A stretch of DNA of 42,808 nt from an uncultured Acidobacteriota bacterium (GTDB taxonomy: Bacteria; Acidobacteriota; Blastocatellia; RBC074): contig CAIOZW010000435.1 of the NCBI GenBank assembly GCA_903862855.1, forward strand, positions 1-42,808, given 5' to 3'. Of the stretch, positions 258 to 35,692 are shown piece by piece; within the stretch, counting starts at the first letter, position 1; every line of letters starts with the position of its first letter. Under the pieces are notes generated by a model, which searched no databases, had not been told where the DNA came from, and saw nothing but the letters and a program-made list of their open reading frames with translations. The translations under genes were made by a program, and so were the position numbers.

Positions 258-1382
258 TTAGAGTCGTCGCAAAAAACTCTTGCCCGGAAGCTGGATGATT
301 CTATCTTTCATTTCGAGACCAAGCAATGCATTCATCATCGCGGGAGAAGAGAGTTGACTGGCCAGAAGGAGCTGATCGATGTGGGCAGGCACATCGGTCG
401 AGAGGAGTTCGATGACGGACCGTTCGACCTCGGTGAGGATAACCGAGTCGATACTGGTCTGGACGGCAGGAGATGGACCGTCAGAGAGTTCGTGTATGTC
501 AGAGCGGAGGTCATTTGGCAGCTCCTCGAGAACGTCGCGTGCGCACTGAATCAGTTTGGCGCCGTCCTTGATGAGATAGTTGGGTCCGAACGAGGTCTGG
601 GAGGTGATATTGCCAGGAACGGCATAGACATCACGCCCCTGTTCGGCAGCCATCCGGGCGGTGATGAGCGAGCCGCTGTGCTCGGCGGCCTCGACGATCA
701 GCACACCAAAGCAGAGACCGCTCAGGATGCGGTTACGATAGGGAAAGTTCTGGGGAAGCGGAGGGGTCGCGAGAGGAAACTCGGAGATGATGGCCCCGGA
801 GGCCACGATCTCGGTTGAGAGTGGGCGATGTTCCGCCGGGTAGGTGCTGTCGAGACCCGTGCCGACGACGGCGATGGTCAGTCCGGCACCGTCGAGAGCC
901 CCGCGATGGGCCGCGGCATCGATGCCACGGGCCAGACCGGAGACGATGGTCAGACCCTGCGCGGCGAGGTCACGCGCGAGGCTTGCTGCGGCATTGATGC
1001 CATAGCTCGATGAGCGGCGTGATCCGACGACGGCAAGGCAGGGCCGCGCGATCGCTTCACGCCACCGTCCACGCAGATAGAGAACCAGTGGCGGATCGTG
1101 AATCTCGCGCAGCAGAGACGGGTAGTCCGGGTCACCAAGGGTGACCAGTTCGATCCCCAGCGGTTCGAGCCGTTCGATCTCAGCCGCCGCCTTCTGTAGA
1201 ACCTCGCTGTCGTGGAGTTCGCGGATCGTCGGCGGCTTGAGTCCAACCCTCTCGAGTGCGGAACGCGATGCGGTGAAGACATTGGCCGGGCAGCCAAATT
1301 CACGCAGAAGCTGATTGGCGGAACGAGGCCCGATTCCACGAACCATATTGAGCGCGACCCAGTCGGCTGTTTCAGCAGGCAT
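258..1382 (-). CDS. dprA: DNA-processing protein DprA (Smf)
   Basis: DprA binds single-stranded DNA entering the cell and loads RecA during natural transformation. At 374 residues the length is normal. Order of parts: an N-terminal helix-hairpin-helix region (VRGIGPRSANQLLREFG), the Rossmann-like DprA domain with GSRRSSSYG, SGLARGIDAAAHRGAL, GTGLDSTYPAEH and SEFPL...FPYRNRILSGL, and a C-terminal winged-helix region ending QLPGKSFLRRL. I chose the ATG at 1382 because AGGAGGT lies 10 nt upstream. The frame could extend 15 codons further, to 1427, but that extension covers the ribosome-binding site and lacks family-like sequence. No other competence gene is nearby. The identification is secure. 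Confidence 0.95.
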   Translation of the reverse strand: MPAETADWVALNMVRGIGPRSANQLLREFGCPANVFTASRSALERVGLKPPTIRELHDSEVLQKAAAEIERLEPLGIELVTLGDPDYPSLLREIHDPPLVLYLRGRWREAIARPCLAVVGSRRSSSYGINAAASLARDLAAQGLTIVSGLARGIDAAAHRGALDGAGLTIAVVGTGLDSTYPAEHRPLSTEIVASGAIISEFPLATPPLPQNFPYRNRILSGLCFGVLIVEAAEHSGSLITARMAAEQGRDVYAVPGNITSQTSFGPNYLIKDGAKLIQCARDVLEELPNDLRSDIHELSDGPSPAVQTSIDSVILTEVERSVIELLSTDVPAHIDQLLLASQLSSPAMMNALLGLEMKDRIIQLPGKSFLRRL

Positions 1383-2177
1383 GGTTAAAGTACCTCCTAA
1401 TGGCTGTCGTTGTTCACTTGGCGCCATTATACGAAGGTTACACTCGAAATCCTACCAAAAATTTTCTGTCAGACTCCGATGGCAGCAGGTTCGCGGCAGG
1501 GGGCGATCGAGCCCGGCGCAGGGTGATGAGCGATATTTGTGAAACTATATGATATGTCGAAGGGTGAAGATGCGTGGGTGAGAATCAGGGTCGATTTACT
1601 TATGATTCTGGCGGGCAATGACACCCCAACTCGATGAAGCTGGGGCTGTCACGGGGTAGAGACGAAGTTTAAGTCAGGTCTTTCAATCAGGACGGTCATC
1701 TCACAAACCAAACCAATCTGAGTTCGGCGCTCAGGACGGGGGATCTGAGTGACCACTGATCACGCTCTTCGGCGTGAATGAGTAACGTGTGTGTAGTTTG
1801 TGAGTGCCGCTCGATCTTGGGTGCGAAGAGAATATCGAAAGGGTCGATTGCTCACTGGGTACAATCGACCCTCTTCGTACCAAAGATCGAGTCGAGCGTT
1901 GGCGACGGAGCATCCCTTTTACGGTAACACCTCGTGCTGCCCAACATCGGCAGATCATACCGACGCTATAAGTAAACACATTTCGCCATGTTTATTCCAG
2001 TCTTTTTTTACAAAAAGAGATTTTTTTTTACGGTTAACCAATTTCGACGACCAAGGTTAAAAAATCGGTCTCTGAGATGGCGAGGATGCCCTGCTCAGGG
2101 CAGGATTCAGGTCGGGAAATCATTCAGGATTCCCCGACCCGAGAGCCGGCGTCAATGAGTGGGTCGAGCGGAATGGC
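1383..2177. other. Long non-coding stretch between larB and dprA with several hairpins
   Basis: About 800 bp without a convincing gene; open frames here have no family-like sequence or good start signals. It holds a hairpin at 1619-1651 (arms around CCCCA/TGGGG, 6-nt loop, no T-run), a small TCACGC/GCGTGA hairpin near 1759, the large bulged inverted repeat at 1810-1891, T-runs of 7 and 9 around 2010-2030, and hairpins at about 2090-2104 and 2110-2140 just after larB. The density of paired structure suggests a non-coding RNA or a decayed element, but no known RNA family is recognised. Confidence 0.5.
1810..1891. repeat. Long bulged inverted repeat (82 nt hairpin)
   Basis: Outer arms at 1810-1830 and 1871-1891 pair over 21 positions with one mismatch and one possible wobble pair. 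Inner arms GGGTCGATTG (1841-1850) and CAATCGACCC (1861-1870) pair perfectly over 10. A 10-nt bulge (1831-1840) sits on the left side only, and the loop is 10 nt. There is no T-run on either side, so it is not an ordinary terminator. It may be a structured RNA, a protein-binding cruciform or the remnant of a small palindromic element. Confidence 0.75.
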
Positions 2178-2924
2178 TCAACCACGATTGATGAGGCTGG
2201 CGACAAAACCAGCGCCAAAACCATTGTCGATATTGACGACGGTGACATTGGAGGAGCAAGAGTTGAGCATGCCGAGCAGGGCGGCGATGCCATTGAAGCT
2301 GGCGCCATAGCCGATGGAGGTCGGGACAGCGATGACCGGGACATTGACCAGACCGCCGACGACCGAGGGAAGAGCGCCCTCCATGCCGGCGACACAGATG
2401 ATGACCCGTGCAGAATCGAGCACCTGGCGGCGGCTGAGAATACGGTGGATGCCGGCGACACCGACATCGAAGAGGCGTTCGATACGGTTGCCCATGATCT
2501 CGACAGTGAGGGCAGCCTCATCAGCGACGGGGATGTCGGATGTTCCGGCCGTGACGACGGCAATCGTTCCGTGACCATGAATGGATGTATCGCGACGGAC
2601 GGAGATGGCACGGCAGCTCTCGTGGTAGACCGCATCGGGAGCGGTCTGGCGAACGATCTCGAACGACTCGGGGTTGGTCCGGGTGACAAGGAGGTTCGAA
2701 GAGCGCTCAAGAAGTCGAGCGGCAATGCCACCGACCTGTTCAGGGGTCTTTCCCTGGCCAAAGATCACTTCTGGAAACCCCTGGCGAAGAGCGCGGTGGT
2801 GGTCAACGTGCGCAAATCCCAGATCCTCAAAAGGGAGATGGCGAAGATCGGCAACCACCTGATCAAGCTCGGTCTGTCCGTCTTTATATGATTTGAGTAT
2901 TTCCCTCAGTCTTGTCTGATCCAT
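2178..2924 (-). CDS. larB: LarB-family pyridinium-3,5-biscarboxylic acid mononucleotide synthase
   Basis: LarB carboxylates and hydrolyses nicotinic acid adenine dinucleotide, the first step in making the nickel-pincer cofactor of lactate racemase and related enzymes. The 248-residue length is normal. The PurE-like C-terminal half carries the family's strongest signatures: [12 protein letters not shown], the [15 protein letters not shown] segment, PTSIGYG and [10 protein letters not shown]. The partners larC and larE are not within this window. The ATG at 2924 has no good ribosome-binding site; the DNA just upstream is A+T-rich and holds a short palindrome at 2936-2949. The start could therefore be on a very short leader. 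The family call is firm; the link to lactate racemase here is inference. Confidence 0.9.
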
Positions 2925-12751: not shown

Positions 12752-14422
12752 ATGAAGAAGAGAGTACGCCGTGTTGATGATGGTCGGCGCAGATTCATGA
12801 AGTCGCTTCCGGCAGCGGGAGCGGCGGTCATGCTGCCCGAGAGTGGAGTTACGGAAGCCGGAGCTGGTCAGGCCCCGGTCAATGGACGCATCTCGCGGGA
12901 GATGCTCCACGAAGCAGCGCAGCTTGCCGGTCTTTCGCTGACCGAGGGACAGGAGACACAGGCACTGCCGGGGATCAACCGCAATCTGACCAGCTATGAG
13001 ACACTGCGGCGGATCGATGTACCGCTCGACACCGAGCTGGCGACGCTCTTCAATCCCGCCCTGCCAGGGAAGCGTTATCAGCGGACGCGGACTCCGCTGC
13101 GGCGAACACGGGTCGCGCCCCCGAGCTTCACGAAGGTCGAGGATCTCGCCTTCTGTACCGTCACTCAGCTCGCAGAGCTGGTGCGGACCCGACGCGTCAC
13201 GTCGGTCGAGTTGACGCAGATGTATCTCGACCGGTTGAAGAAGGAGGGTGAGAAGCTGCTCTGCGTCGTCACCCTGACCGAGGAACTGGCGCAGCAGCAG
13301 GCGGCAGCGGCCGATCGTGAGATTGCGGCTGGACGCTACCGTGGACCGCTGCACGGCATACCTTATGGACTAAAGGATCTCTTTGCGACGAAGGGATACT
13401 TGACCACCTGGGGCGCCGAGCCATTTCGTGAGCAGATGATCGATCTCGATGCGACAGTGGTCGAGAGGCTGCGGGAGGCTGGAGCAGTGCTCGTCGCCAA
13501 GCTCTCGATGGGTGCACTGGCCCAGGGAGCACGCTGGTTCAAAGGAGTGACGCGCAACCCAAAACAGCCCGAGGAGGCAACCATCGGTTCCAGCGGCTCT
13601 TCGGCCGGTTCGGCAGCGGCGACGGCGGCCGGTCTGGTCGGCTTTGCGATCGGGACTGAGACCCTTGGGTCGATCATCTCGCCATCGGCGCGGTGTGGCG
13701 TCACCGGACTCCGCCCGACTTATGGGAGAATCAGCCGCTATGGGGCAATGGCCCTCAGTTGGACCATGGACAAGATCGGGCCGATCTGCCGCGGAGTCGA
13801 GGACTGCGCCCTCGTGCTGGATGCGTTGTATGGGCCTGATGGACGCGATCTGAGCGTCAGCGATGCCGCCTTCAATTGGTCTCCCCGCCGACAACTCTCG
13901 AAGATGCGGATTGGTTACCTGAAGAATGAGTTCGAACAGGGTGATGAGGCGCGGCGAAAAGTATACGCAGAGGCACTCGACAGGCTCCGCGCCGCCGGGG
14001 CCAACCTGCAACCGATCGAGCTGCCAAAGATCGAGGCCGGGGCGCTGCGGATCATCCTCTCTGCCGAGGCAGCAACGGCTTTTGACGATATCACCCGAGA
14101 CGGGCGGGTCAACCAGCTCTCCGGGCAGGGCCCGAACGACTGGCCAAACTCCTTCCGCACCTCGCGCTTCATTCCAGCTGTCGAGTACCTGCGGGCCCAG
14201 CGGATCCGTCGGCTGCTGATGATCGAGATGGATCGCCTCATGAGTCAGTGGGATGTCTTCGTCTCTCCGGCGCCGGGGAGCGCCAGTCTGACGATCACCA
14301 ATCTGACGGGCCATCCCGCAGTCGTGACCCCTTGTGGCGCAGTCAACGGACTGCCCCTGGGGATTATGTTTACTGGCAATGTTTATGACGAGGGGGCTCC
14401 ACTGAGAGTCGCCATGGGATAG
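12752..14422 (+). CDS. Tat-type secreted amidase, C-terminus apparently cut short
   Basis: An amidase-signature enzyme of 556 residues. The N-terminus reads GRRRFMKSLPAAGAA, a twin-arginine-like signal, so export is likely. The Ser-cisSer-Lys residues are visible: Lys208 in GLKDLF, the SSGSSAGSAAATAAG serine block (281-295) and Ser307 in GTETLGSIISPSARCG. The substrate is unknown; amidase signature enzymes hydrolyse many amides. The frame ends in TAG at 14420-14422, immediately after YDEGAPLRVAM, where relatives continue for about 15-20 residues. Downstream sequence still resembles that tail: TFQTA in the same frame, then KYHQ in the next frame, ending TGA at 14485-14487, 1 bp before the next gene. 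A stop plus a frameshift may have removed the tail. The product may still be active. Confidence 0.88.
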   Translation: MKKRVRRVDDGRRRFMKSLPAAGAAVMLPESGVTEAGAGQAPVNGRISREMLHEAAQLAGLSLTEGQETQALPGINRNLTSYETLRRIDVPLDTELATLFNPALPGKRYQRTRTPLRRTRVAPPSFTKVEDLAFCTVTQLAELVRTRRVTSVELTQMYLDRLKKEGEKLLCVVTLTEELAQQQAAAADREIAAGRYRGPLHGIPYGLKDLFATKGYLTTWGAEPFREQMIDLDATVVERLREAGAVLVAKLSMGALAQGARWFKGVTRNPKQPEEATIGSSGSSAGSAAATAAGLVGFAIGTETLGSIISPSARCGVTGLRPTYGRISRYGAMALSWTMDKIGPICRGVEDCALVLDALYGPDGRDLSVSDAAFNWSPRRQLSKMRIGYLKNEFEQGDEARRKVYAEALDRLRAAGANLQPIELPKIEAGALRIILSAEAATAFDDITRDGRVNQLSGQGPNDWPNSFRTSRFIPAVEYLRAQRIRRLLMIEMDRLMSQWDVFVSPAPGSASLTITNLTGHPAVVTPCGAVNGLPLGIMFTGNVYDEGAPLRVAMG

Positions 14423-32633: not shown

Positions 32634-33767
32634 TCAATACTGGCGGATCAACTGACGGATCGTCGTGCGGATCAGCGTCGGTGGCAGGTCATCTCGAACG
32701 ACGACATTCCCGATGGTCGTCGGGAGAATGAAAGGAAGACGCCCGTGGGCGACCTTCTTGTCATGAGCCATGGCGGCAATGACCTCCGCCGCATCGAGAT
32801 CCCCGATGGCTGGTCGCCGTCCAATCATCTCGGTCTGCTCGCGAATCGTCTCCGCCTCGGCCGCCGTGAGTATTCCAAGTCCGGTGGCAAGTCTCGCCGC
32901 ACAGATCATACCATAACCGACTGCCTCACCGTGCTTGAGTCGACGGTAGGAGGTGACAGCCTCGAGCGCATGACCGACCGTATGTCCGTAATTGAGGATT
33001 CGCCGCAATCCACCCTCTCGCTCATCGGCGGCGACGACATCGGCCTTGATCTGGCAGCAGCGGGCAATGAGATGGGTCAGTGGCTGATCATCGAGCCGCT
33101 TGATCGCGGCCAGGTTGGCGGCGATGAAATCGGCCAGCTGGCGATCACGGATGATTCCGTACTTGAGTGCTTCATACATACCCGCCCCAAATTCACGGGC
33201 AGGAAGAGTGCGGAGAACGATCGGATCGATGACTACGCCAACCGGCTGGTGGAATGATCCGATCAGATTCTTACCGCGTGGGCTGTTGACAGCAGTCTTG
33301 CCACCAACCGAACTGTCGATCTGGGCGAGGAGAGTGGTCGGAATCTGAAGAAAGGGAATACCGCGCTGATAGGTGGCGGCGACGAAACCCGCGAGATCTC
33401 CCACCACTCCACCTCCGAGGGCGACAATACCCTCGCGACGCTCGATGCGGTTCTCGATCAGAAAGTCCCAGACCTTCTCGGCAGTGCGAACCGATTTGGC
33501 ACGCTCGCCATCACCAATGAGATACTTGACGGTCTTGAAGCCGGTCCGGCGCAGGGCGCGGCTGACCGACTCGCCATAGTGGCGGTCAACGACGGGATTG
33601 GAGATGATCGCCAGCCTCGCCGCCTTTGGACCAAAGACACGGCGTGCGACTTCACCGACGCGCGCGAGAGCCCCGCTGCCTATCTCGATCTCGTAGCTGC
33701 GTTCTCCGAGGGGAACCCTCACCGTTTCGCCCGCTGAAGGCTGGTCATTCCGATCGTTACTGTTCAT
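32634..33767 (-). CDS. aroB: 3-dehydroquinate synthase
   Basis: AroB converts DAHP to 3-dehydroquinate in the shikimate pathway, using NAD and a divalent metal. The 377-residue protein shows YLIGDGERAKS near the nucleotide site, LGGGVVGDLAGFVAATYQRG, IPTTLLAQIDSSVGGKTAVN, the FHQPVGVVIDP block, EALKYGIIRD, LRRILNYGHTVGHALE (metal-binding histidine) and LKHGEAVGYGM. Its start overlaps the end of the upstream M3-like gene by 11 bp, so the two are co-translated. No other shikimate gene is nearby, but chorismate also feeds the futalosine pathway found at 3-7.5 kb. Confidence 0.95.
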   Translation of the reverse strand: MNSNDRNDQPSAGETVRVPLGERSYEIEIGSGALARVGEVARRVFGPKAARLAIISNPVVDRHYGESVSRALRRTGFKTVKYLIGDGERAKSVRTAEKVWDFLIENRIERREGIVALGGGVVGDLAGFVAATYQRGIPFLQIPTTLLAQIDSSVGGKTAVNSPRGKNLIGSFHQPVGVVIDPIVLRTLPAREFGAGMYEALKYGIIRDRQLADFIAANLAAIKRLDDQPLTHLIARCCQIKADVVAADEREGGLRRILNYGHTVGHALEAVTSYRRLKHGEAVGYGMICAARLATGLGILTAAEAETIREQTEMIGRRPAIGDLDAAEVIAAMAHDKKVAHGRLPFILPTTIGNVVVRDDLPPTLIRTTIRQLIRQY

Positions 33768-35232
33768 TGTTCTCTCTCAGAAGTTCATCGATCAACCATT
33801 GGAAGTCGAGTGGACCAAATCCGACCATCCGGGCCAGCTCATCTGGTGGATAGCGGTAACCCGTATTCCAGACATCGATCAGCATCTCACCGGCACGGCG
33901 GTTCCTCCACCAGTCAGAGCCGTATGATGATTTTAAATGCTCGCGGCACTGCGATTCAAAGACTGCCGCACGGAGGAGGCTGGCCGCGCCGGGTGGGTGG
34001 AGGCCAAAGCGGGAGGTCACCGAGGAGAGAGCGACTCCACGGATCCGCCCGATTCCGCGGCGATAGTCATCAGAATCACCCGGGCTGACTGGAATGAGAA
34101 GTGCGAGACCGAGCAGTTCACGGTAACGATCACCGGCCCGCGTACTCACCTGCCCCTTCAGATATTCAACCTCATAGATGAGCCGCGCCGCAGCCAGGCG
34201 CAGCTCGATGAGACGCAGGCAGCGGATACCGGAAAGAAAATCGTCCGTTCCGGTGTGGCCAAAGGCGATGGTCAACCACTGTCGCTCACCAAGCAGTCCA
34301 TCAAAAAGCATTCCCCAGGCAAGCGGCAAGGTATGATCGGAAGCGACCACCGGGTACTGAAATTCCGGTGCGAGACTGGCCGACGTCCAGGCCGCCATCT
34401 GGGCCGCTCCGGCAGACTGCCAGAACGCTCGCTCGGCAGAGCGTCCATCAAGGGGGCGATAACCGAGGGTGATCCTCTCCGGTGGGCGAACCGACCAGAC
34501 ATCGGGCAGATCAGAGGGCATCGCCACTGAGTCCGACAACCGGCAGAGCTCTAGCCCGGTCTGCTGGTCGGTGCGAAAGCCAAGATCGGCAAAGAGGTCG
34601 GCATAACGTGCCAGTCGCGTCTCAAAGCGGAGCGCGTGCGCCCCTGCACCAGAAAGCTCGAGCGCAGCGAGGTCGGCACGACTCGCCTGGTGGAGTGGAA
34701 GCTGCCGCTCGCGCCGAAGCATCGCGGCCAGACTACGCTCGGCCACCCGCTCGGTCAGCTCAAGCAGGCGACCCGCCAGCCCGACCAGGCCAACATAGTC
34801 GATCCCATCCAACTCCGTTCGCAGGTGGAGCAGATCGGCATAACCAAGCTCCTTCGCCGTCCGCCGGTGCAGTTCCAGCTGTTCACCATAGAGATCGTCA
34901 AGCAACCCCGGGGCTTCGATCACTCGCGGATCCACTGACTGTCGCGCCAGCTCCTCATCGATCTCAAGCGCCGCCGATGTGAGTCGACCTTCGATCGAAA
35001 ACCCGAGCAGACGCCGCGCTCCGATAAGCTCCCTCTCTCCAGTCCCGCCCTCTCCCTGCAACTTCAGGTAATCCCGGAGTTGTCCGATCATTCCCACACT
35101 GAAGAGGTCACGGTGCTCTCGAAAGATCGCCAGGCTCTCCGTCGCACGGCGCAGTCCCTTCCGGCAGAGCAATGCCATCTCCGTACTGGTCGATCGGTAG
35201 TCGATGAAACGTCGTCGATATTCAGTCAGCAT
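33757..35232 (-). CDS. M3-like peptidase homologue lacking the zinc-binding motif (probable pseudoenzyme)
   Basis: A 491-residue, mostly helical protein. From about residue 250 it resembles the bacterial M3 oligopeptidase-like group: YRPLDGRSAERAFW, then a long segment matching the region around the HExxH zinc site and the following glutamate. Here HEAGHA-like sequence is replaced by QSAGAA (residues 272-277), and the region where the third ligand glutamate is expected reads TLPLAWGMLF. None of the three zinc ligands or the catalytic glutamate is present, so peptidase activity is unlikely. The frame itself is intact, with no frameshift or stop, which argues for a kept, non-catalytic role. Upstream sequence in the same frame to 35388 is an inverted repeat and not coding. 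The ATG at 35232 lacks a strong ribosome-binding site. Family assignment is by eye. Confidence 0.7.
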   Translation of the reverse strand: MLTEYRRRFIDYRSTSTEMALLCRKGLRRATESLAIFREHRDLFSVGMIGQLRDYLKLQGEGGTGERELIGARRLLGFSIEGRLTSAALEIDEELARQSVDPRVIEAPGLLDDLYGEQLELHRRTAKELGYADLLHLRTELDGIDYVGLVGLAGRLLELTERVAERSLAAMLRRERQLPLHQASRADLAALELSGAGAHALRFETRLARYADLFADLGFRTDQQTGLELCRLSDSVAMPSDLPDVWSVRPPERITLGYRPLDGRSAERAFWQSAGAAQMAAWTSASLAPEFQYPVVASDHTLPLAWGMLFDGLLGERQWLTIAFGHTGTDDFLSGIRCLRLIELRLAAARLIYEVEYLKGQVSTRAGDRYRELLGLALLIPVSPGDSDDYRRGIGRIRGVALSSVTSRFGLHPPGAASLLRAAVFESQCREHLKSSYGSDWWRNRRAGEMLIDVWNTGYRYPPDELARMVGFGPLDFQWLIDELLRENNEQ

Positions 35233-35294
35233 GTCTTGAACCGGAACTGTACCGGAGGGGCAGGAAGAGTGGCCAATCCTGTGTTGGACAACCT

Positions 35295-35386
35295 GGCAGT
35301 CTGGTCGGCGCATTAACGCGTTTTCCGGTGCATCCCCCACCGCAATCCATTGCTGGATTGCGCGCTCATGCGCCGACCACACTGCC
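35295..35386. repeat. Long imperfect inverted repeat with an inner hairpin
   Basis: Arms at 35295-35320 and 35361-35386 match over 26 bp with three differences. Within the 40-bp middle, CGCAATCC and GGATTGCG (35341-35348, 35355-35362) form a second stem that competes with part of the outer one. It lies 60 bp upstream of the M3-like gene's start. No T-run follows either arm, so termination is unlikely. Possible roles are a cruciform protein site, a structured leader or a small palindromic element. Confidence 0.75.
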
Positions 35387-35692
35387 ACTGCCCCGGCTGG
35401 TCATAACTGCTCTTTCACAGCGCAGCAAATTATTGAACAGTCTATGCTTTCATACTCTTTTCCGAAAGAGTCAAAGGGCCATTTTCAGTCACAATCAAGG
35501 TGAAGTCCCGAGAGATGAAGGGAAGTGCCAGACTGTCCTGACTCTTTGCAGTTGAACCGAACGTGAACAGGATAAATGCCCAACGAGAAAGACTGGCGAC
35601 TGTCGCAAACCTGATACAAAAACGAGTTAAATTATAAAGTATATCGTTTGGCGGGTTTGAACAAGGAGAGGACTTGATTGCAGATAAAAATA

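Follow-up and report, generated by a model that had tools for sequence, protein, structure and literature searches.

A candidate structured small RNA, conserved within one Acidobacteriota family, in the larB-dprA gap

Results

A bulged hairpin lies between larB and dprA

The window, i.e., the whole 42,808-nucleotide stretch of DNA that was analysed, carries the genes larB and dprA on its minus strand, and a bulged hairpin in the gap between them:

2178-2924, minus strand: larB, the upstream neighbour on the same strand (NCBIfam LarB, 296 bits, over cut-off)
258-1427, minus strand: dprA, the downstream neighbour on the same strand and not part of the RNA described below (TIGR00732, 242 bits, over cut-off)
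1810-1891, minus strand: 82-nt hairpin, composed of a conserved hairpin (P3) and an outer extension in which the linker pairs with the 3' flank (from the inverted repeat and fold predictions)

The original prediction had placed a bulged 82-nt hairpin in the larB-dprA gap and had held its chance formation to be very unlikely, and each of these points was borne out. Both flanking genes scored over their cut-offs. The arms of the inverted repeat (1810-1830 and 1871-1891, 21 nt each) are 90% complementary, and the predicted fold includes the inner 10-bp stem and the one-sided bulge. Predicted folding energies were -43.9 kcal/mol (z -8.1) for the plus strand and -40.3 kcal/mol (z -7.4) for the minus strand, with 0 of 200 shuffles as good on either strand. 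A genome-wide search for further copies, which had also been envisaged, found no second copy of the hairpin in its own genome (4.6 Mb, 517 contigs).

Comparison with relatives showed that conservation of the hairpin is confined to approximately 1831-1881, and that the outermost pairs (1810-1830 with 1882-1891) extend it locally. The outer extension is longest in this genome; in minimum-energy folds it is also present in the same-genus genome G001, is shorter in G003, G002 and G005, and in the four genomes of genus g5 is either absent or three pairs long. Because the extension varies among the folds of relatives, the bulged shape of the hairpin appears to be mainly a local elaboration of the conserved hairpin.

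Two further hairpins were observed in the window. One (1617-1655), with arms of approximately 10 nt, TGACA and CCCCA (by eye), lies between the RNA and dprA, outside the conserved part. The other (35294-35387) has 27-nt arms that are 89% complementary, and the region 35280-35400 folds at -71.7 kcal/mol on the minus strand; a 543-aa open frame (33757-35388, minus strand) has this hairpin at its 5' end and gave no NCBIfam match. The stem string of the hairpin, TGCGCCGACCA, recurs at 12781-12791 and, with up to one mismatch, occurs at 5 places in the window versus 1.24 expected. The resemblance previously drawn between this hairpin and the one in the larB-dprA gap stands as one of layout only.

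The hairpin most likely forms the tail of a longer conserved RNA

To find homologous regions, positions 1400-2200 were used as a blastn query against 58 genomes, including the window's own; 46 of the 58 gave a match at E 1, and the seven strongest places were used. A 149-base match (79%) was found in the same-genus G001, and five other genomes of the family matched over 59-61 bases (85-89%). Conservation extends from approximately 1831 to beyond 1972, well upstream of the 82-nt hairpin. Thus, the hairpin appears to belong to a longer conserved structured RNA, most likely encoded on the minus strand (approximately 1972-1825), and to form its 3' portion. The parts, with a promoter-like box upstream, are as follows:

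1996-2000, minus strand: CTGGA box, a putative -35-like promoter element (fixed spacing in 9/9 genomes)
1825-1972, minus strand: structured RNA element, full-length covariance model match (R2, 111.1 bits; R1, 122.5 bits, with the window among its 7 sequences)
1946-1964, minus strand: P1, a 7-bp stem with a 5-nt loop ending in invariant GATC (covariance alignment)
1891-1945, minus strand: P2, a long irregular stem (covariance alignment)
1880-1890, minus strand: linker with invariant TCTTTGG at 1880-1886 (aligned sequences)
1831-1881, minus strand: P3, the conserved long 3' hairpin with 20 model pairs (model-fitted alignment)
1851-1859, minus strand: apical loop of P3, CCCAGTGAG, invariant (identical in 9/9)

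P1 and P3 are well kept in this genome, and much of the P2 consensus is lost: the six non-standard pairs of the window all fall within P2, one more P2 pair has a gap, and the P2 apex GGTCCGATGCCGG, common to the eight other genomes, is degenerate here. A pseudoknot between the P3 loop and the linker, considered by eye, was set aside, as a 20-bp stem keeps the two stretches apart, one at each end, and one linker position varies with no compensation. Across the match of 148-158 nt, none of the six frames is stop-free in all nine genomes, the best being free in five of the nine (frames counted from the end, with indels as they stand); therefore, the element has no conserved protein-coding frame.

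Covariation was assessed on two alignments. In the unfitted MAFFT alignment of nine sequences, 15 of the 40 predicted pairs showed double changes that keep pairing, so that a comparison with homologous regions, as envisaged in the original prediction, gave a positive result. In the alignment fitted to the model, 97.0% of 403 cells were paired (shuffled mean 90.3%) and double changes occurred at 16 of 45 pairs (shuffled mean 6.4), values that 0 of 500 shuffles reached in either case; when the structure was slid along the same alignment as a control, at most 57.6% of cells were paired, with at most five double-change pairs. The number of further pair types in the fitted alignment, 37 against a shuffled mean of 34.6, was not clearly above shuffles (reached by 59 of 500). 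Most of the double changes fall in P3, with 12 of its 20 pairs affected and 99.4% of cells paired, and its loop string is unchanged in all nine sequences while the stem varies in this way; P1 showed double changes in two of seven pairs, with 100% of cells paired over nine sequences. In addition, a search of 162 genomes of the class with R1 (7 sequences) recovered two members that the model had not seen, G002 at 101 bits and G005 at 92.6 bits. These comparisons provide strong evidence, at the level of sequence, for a conserved RNA structure.

The minus strand is the better candidate for the RNA

RNAalifold gave -54.0 for the minus strand versus -40.3 for the plus strand on the first seven sequences. 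When the strands of the unfitted nine-sequence alignment were folded separately, the minus strand reached -45.5 with 40 pairs and the plus strand -31.9 with 25 pairs. The minus structure contained 65 G-U and 2 A-C cells of 360, and the plus structure 7 G-U and 8 A-C cells of 225. The model-fitted alignment, which was built for the minus strand and is biased towards it, held 65 G-U and 2 A-C among its 403 cells. Double changes were seen on the plus strand too (14 of 25 pairs, next to 15 of 40 for the minus strand), since P1 and P3 can pair on either; covariation alone does not tell the strand. Overall, there is good evidence from the modelled folds that the minus strand is the RNA strand.

The element was found in one Acidobacteriota family

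A strong match, one in each genome, was present in 9 of the 11 genomes of the family (G000, G001, G002, G003, G005, G006, G008, G009 and G010). The other two lacked a strong match: G004 (97% complete) gave none, and G007 (88% complete) gave one at E 0.6 only. With R2 at E 0.01, the same search over the class matched 9 of 162 genomes and 0 of the 151 outside the family. R1 matched 11 of the 162, among them G024 (29.3 bits) and G031 (18.6 bits), which were dropped because the matches lie inside long open frames, by eye those of a metal transporter and a DNA polymerase. Under laxer filters, applied to 23 genomes, 15 matched at E 1, i.e., the nine and six weak ones (G007 at E 0.6, G015, G023 at E 0.0095, G024, G031 and G036); the 12 genomes of other families in this set gave weak matches only, the best at 29 bits (G024). 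In a sample of the phylum, 4 of 396 genomes matched, of which three are family members and the fourth, G323, was dropped as a local match of 39 nt. Both large searches were run with stricter filters, at the cost of weak matches, and may have overlooked distant relatives.

Other approaches yielded candidates that were rejected. The pattern TCTTTGG-gap-CCCAGTGAGC occurred in 11 of the 162 genomes, namely the same nine plus G121 and G019, and in these two the best model match (5.7 bits) lay elsewhere and no P3-like fold was seen at the pattern places. Of 18 non-carrier genomes queried for their dprA loci, 17 yielded one (G007 did not), and these gave scattered model matches of at most 15.4 bits (E 0.005), none of which was taken as real. 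The 15-nt loop string is present in 29 viral contigs, and a model search of viral contigs gave eight matches up to E 1 (the best at 14.9 and 14.2 bits); both were taken as chance. Thus, in what was searched, the distribution of the element is limited to one Acidobacteriota family.

Neighbouring genes differ among the members

The next gene on the strand of the RNA is dprA in four of the nine genomes (this one, G001, G003 and G002), at a distance of 151-398 nt, a protein of approximately 116 aa in another four (G006, G008, G009 and G010), and a DUF4126 protein in G005. Upstream neighbours also vary, comprising larB, CHAD, DUF4432 and SDR-like genes (SDR and some of the copies were called by eye). 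With three kinds of downstream gene and varied upstream neighbours, the RNA follows no single gene. All four genomes in which the conserved protein of approximately 116 aa follows the RNA belong to one genus (L004, L005, L006 and L008); in the one copy scanned, that of G009 (L040:2734-3084), neither Pfam nor NCBIfam gave a match. In genomes of three genera (L034, L037 and L038), the RNA has a divergent CHAD-domain gene next to it, which was unseen beside other members; the call rests on a Pfam match in L037 and L038 and on sequence likeness in L034.

This context bears on whether the RNA could be a cis-acting leader of dprA, riboswitch-like or an attenuator, in which P3 would serve as a switchable terminator. 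That dprA follows in four members, and that the outer extension of P3, pairing the linker with the 3' flank, is predicted to fold in those four and in G005, would suit such a role. However, the position before dprA is not constant, as another gene comes next in five of the nine, and each genome has one strong match. The stretch between the RNA and dprA is also poorly conserved even within the genus: the blastn match to G001 ends at 1832, and identities per 30 columns were 21-29 in the P3 blocks and 12-17 beyond (one P2 block had only 10). We therefore regard a dprA leader as unlikely. Since the neighbouring genes differ, the RNA looks like an independent gene.

A promoter-like box precedes the RNA at a fixed distance

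In all nine genomes, the start of the CTGGA box lies exactly 36 nt upstream of the first P1 base, and a T at -12 is likewise present in 9/9 members; further upstream than the box, to -88, no column is invariant among the nine. A promoter would be expected to show such a constant distance and few conserved positions within it, and the box is promoter-like for this reason. Its sequence resembles -35 boxes of the ECF type (GGAA), and a consensus scan found no sigma-70-like promoter on the strand of the RNA. At the other end, a scan that allows loops of 3-8 nt found no terminator-like site at P3, whose loop has 9 nt, and in most members P3 is followed by a short U-run (by eye).

Discussion

The original prediction had read the hairpin as a non-coding RNA or a decayed palindromic element. 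The first of these readings is favoured by the covariation, the better fold of the minus strand, the box at fixed distance and the retention of the element in 9 of 11 family genomes; the extent first proposed proved too short upstream and named no strand, the conserved element covering approximately 1825-2000, most likely on the minus strand. We consider it probable that the locus is a free-standing gene for a structured sRNA of approximately 150 nt, on the minus strand and with its own promoter, and that this sRNA most likely acts in trans. Transcription would start at approximately 1964 from a promoter that includes the CTGGA box at 1996-2000, and the RNA would end at or just after P3, which may double as a terminator. 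The invariant unpaired stretches, i.e., the P3 loop CCCAGUGAG, the UCUUUGG of the linker and the GAUC of the P1 loop, would contact mRNAs or protein. Action in trans would be by base-pairing with mRNAs, possibly with Hfq.

The most likely reading is an sRNA particular to this lineage that acts in trans, pairing with mRNAs through its exposed loops. Perhaps it has Hfq as a partner, by analogy with known sRNAs: the same genome encodes Hfq (93 bits), and matches exceed the cut-off in 8 of the 11 genomes of the family, this one included, but in only six of the nine that carry the RNA. An exact 11-nt complement to the P3 loop, searched for in six of the nine genomes, was present at five places outside the RNA in four of the six (a reversed-pattern control gave two places); none lay in the window's own genome and none was shared among the six. 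That this is an undescribed class of sRNA restricted to a single Acidobacteriota family, with a dedicated promoter whose -36 box is reminiscent of ECF boxes and a stress-linked regulatory role exerted through the invariant 9-nt loop on its rapidly changing stem, seems to us doubtful.

The RNA might instead chiefly bind protein, as a scaffold, a sponge or a polymerase mimic, rather than mRNAs. Invariant loops carried on covarying stems would fit this, as would the lack of an exact P3-loop target common to the six genomes. On the other hand, matches to known RNA families were not found in Rfam, the 6S RNA is encoded elsewhere in the same genome, and the SRP RNA was found in 8 of 11 family genomes including this one; a mainly protein-binding RNA is thus quite unlikely. 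A palindromic DNA element, be it a decayed mobile element, a recombination site or a protein-binding palindrome, is highly improbable, as the long imperfect inverted repeat and the pairing of P1 and P3 on either strand have to be set against one strong match per genome, stems kept through changes, a better minus-strand fold with many G-U pairs, conservation of the other stems and the upstream box alongside the hairpin, and no match in plasmid records (query: the gap) or phage records (query: 1825-1972).

As a candidate, the element is well supported: it would be a new family within a known kind of small RNA, with a function that we only infer. Acidobacteriota is a large phylum with few cultured members, and to our knowledge few regulatory RNAs have been described in it. 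The candidate family comes with a structure, a strand, a region for its start and the genomes that carry it, and metatranscriptomes could be searched for it directly. It also illustrates how a conserved RNA gene can first show itself as a single hairpin spotted by eye.

The RNA matches no family of Rfam 15 in the window, the gap or the eight homologous loci. At gathering scores, the whole window gave 0 matches. A permissive scan of the gap returned a single sub-threshold miRNA model (1806-1895, plus strand, 22.6 bits against a threshold of 100), and the same scan of the eight homologous loci returned a flanking tRNA over threshold, two sub-threshold miRNA models and nothing else. A literature search found no title on this Acidobacteriota RNA. 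Acido-1 (RF01686) and Acido-Lenti-1 (RF01687) are candidate structured RNAs in Acidobacteria that are listed as not cis-regulatory (PMC2864571), and in these respects, as far as that listing goes, they are like the RNA described here. They differ from it in that neither appeared in the permissive scans of the gap and the eight homologous loci.

In the same genome, 6S RNA (RF00013) was over cut-off on another contig at 57.2 bits, and both matches up to E 10 lie off the contig of the window. Like the present RNA, 6S RNA is single-copy, autonomous, structured and of similar size; it forms one long rod with a central bubble, whereas three hairpins in a row are predicted here. Compared with Hfq-associated trans-acting sRNAs, this RNA differs in its 3' U-run, which is weak in most members (by eye). 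It is like them in size, in its promoter-like box, in its 3' stem-loop and in its exposed conserved loops, and its genome encodes Hfq, a putative partner.
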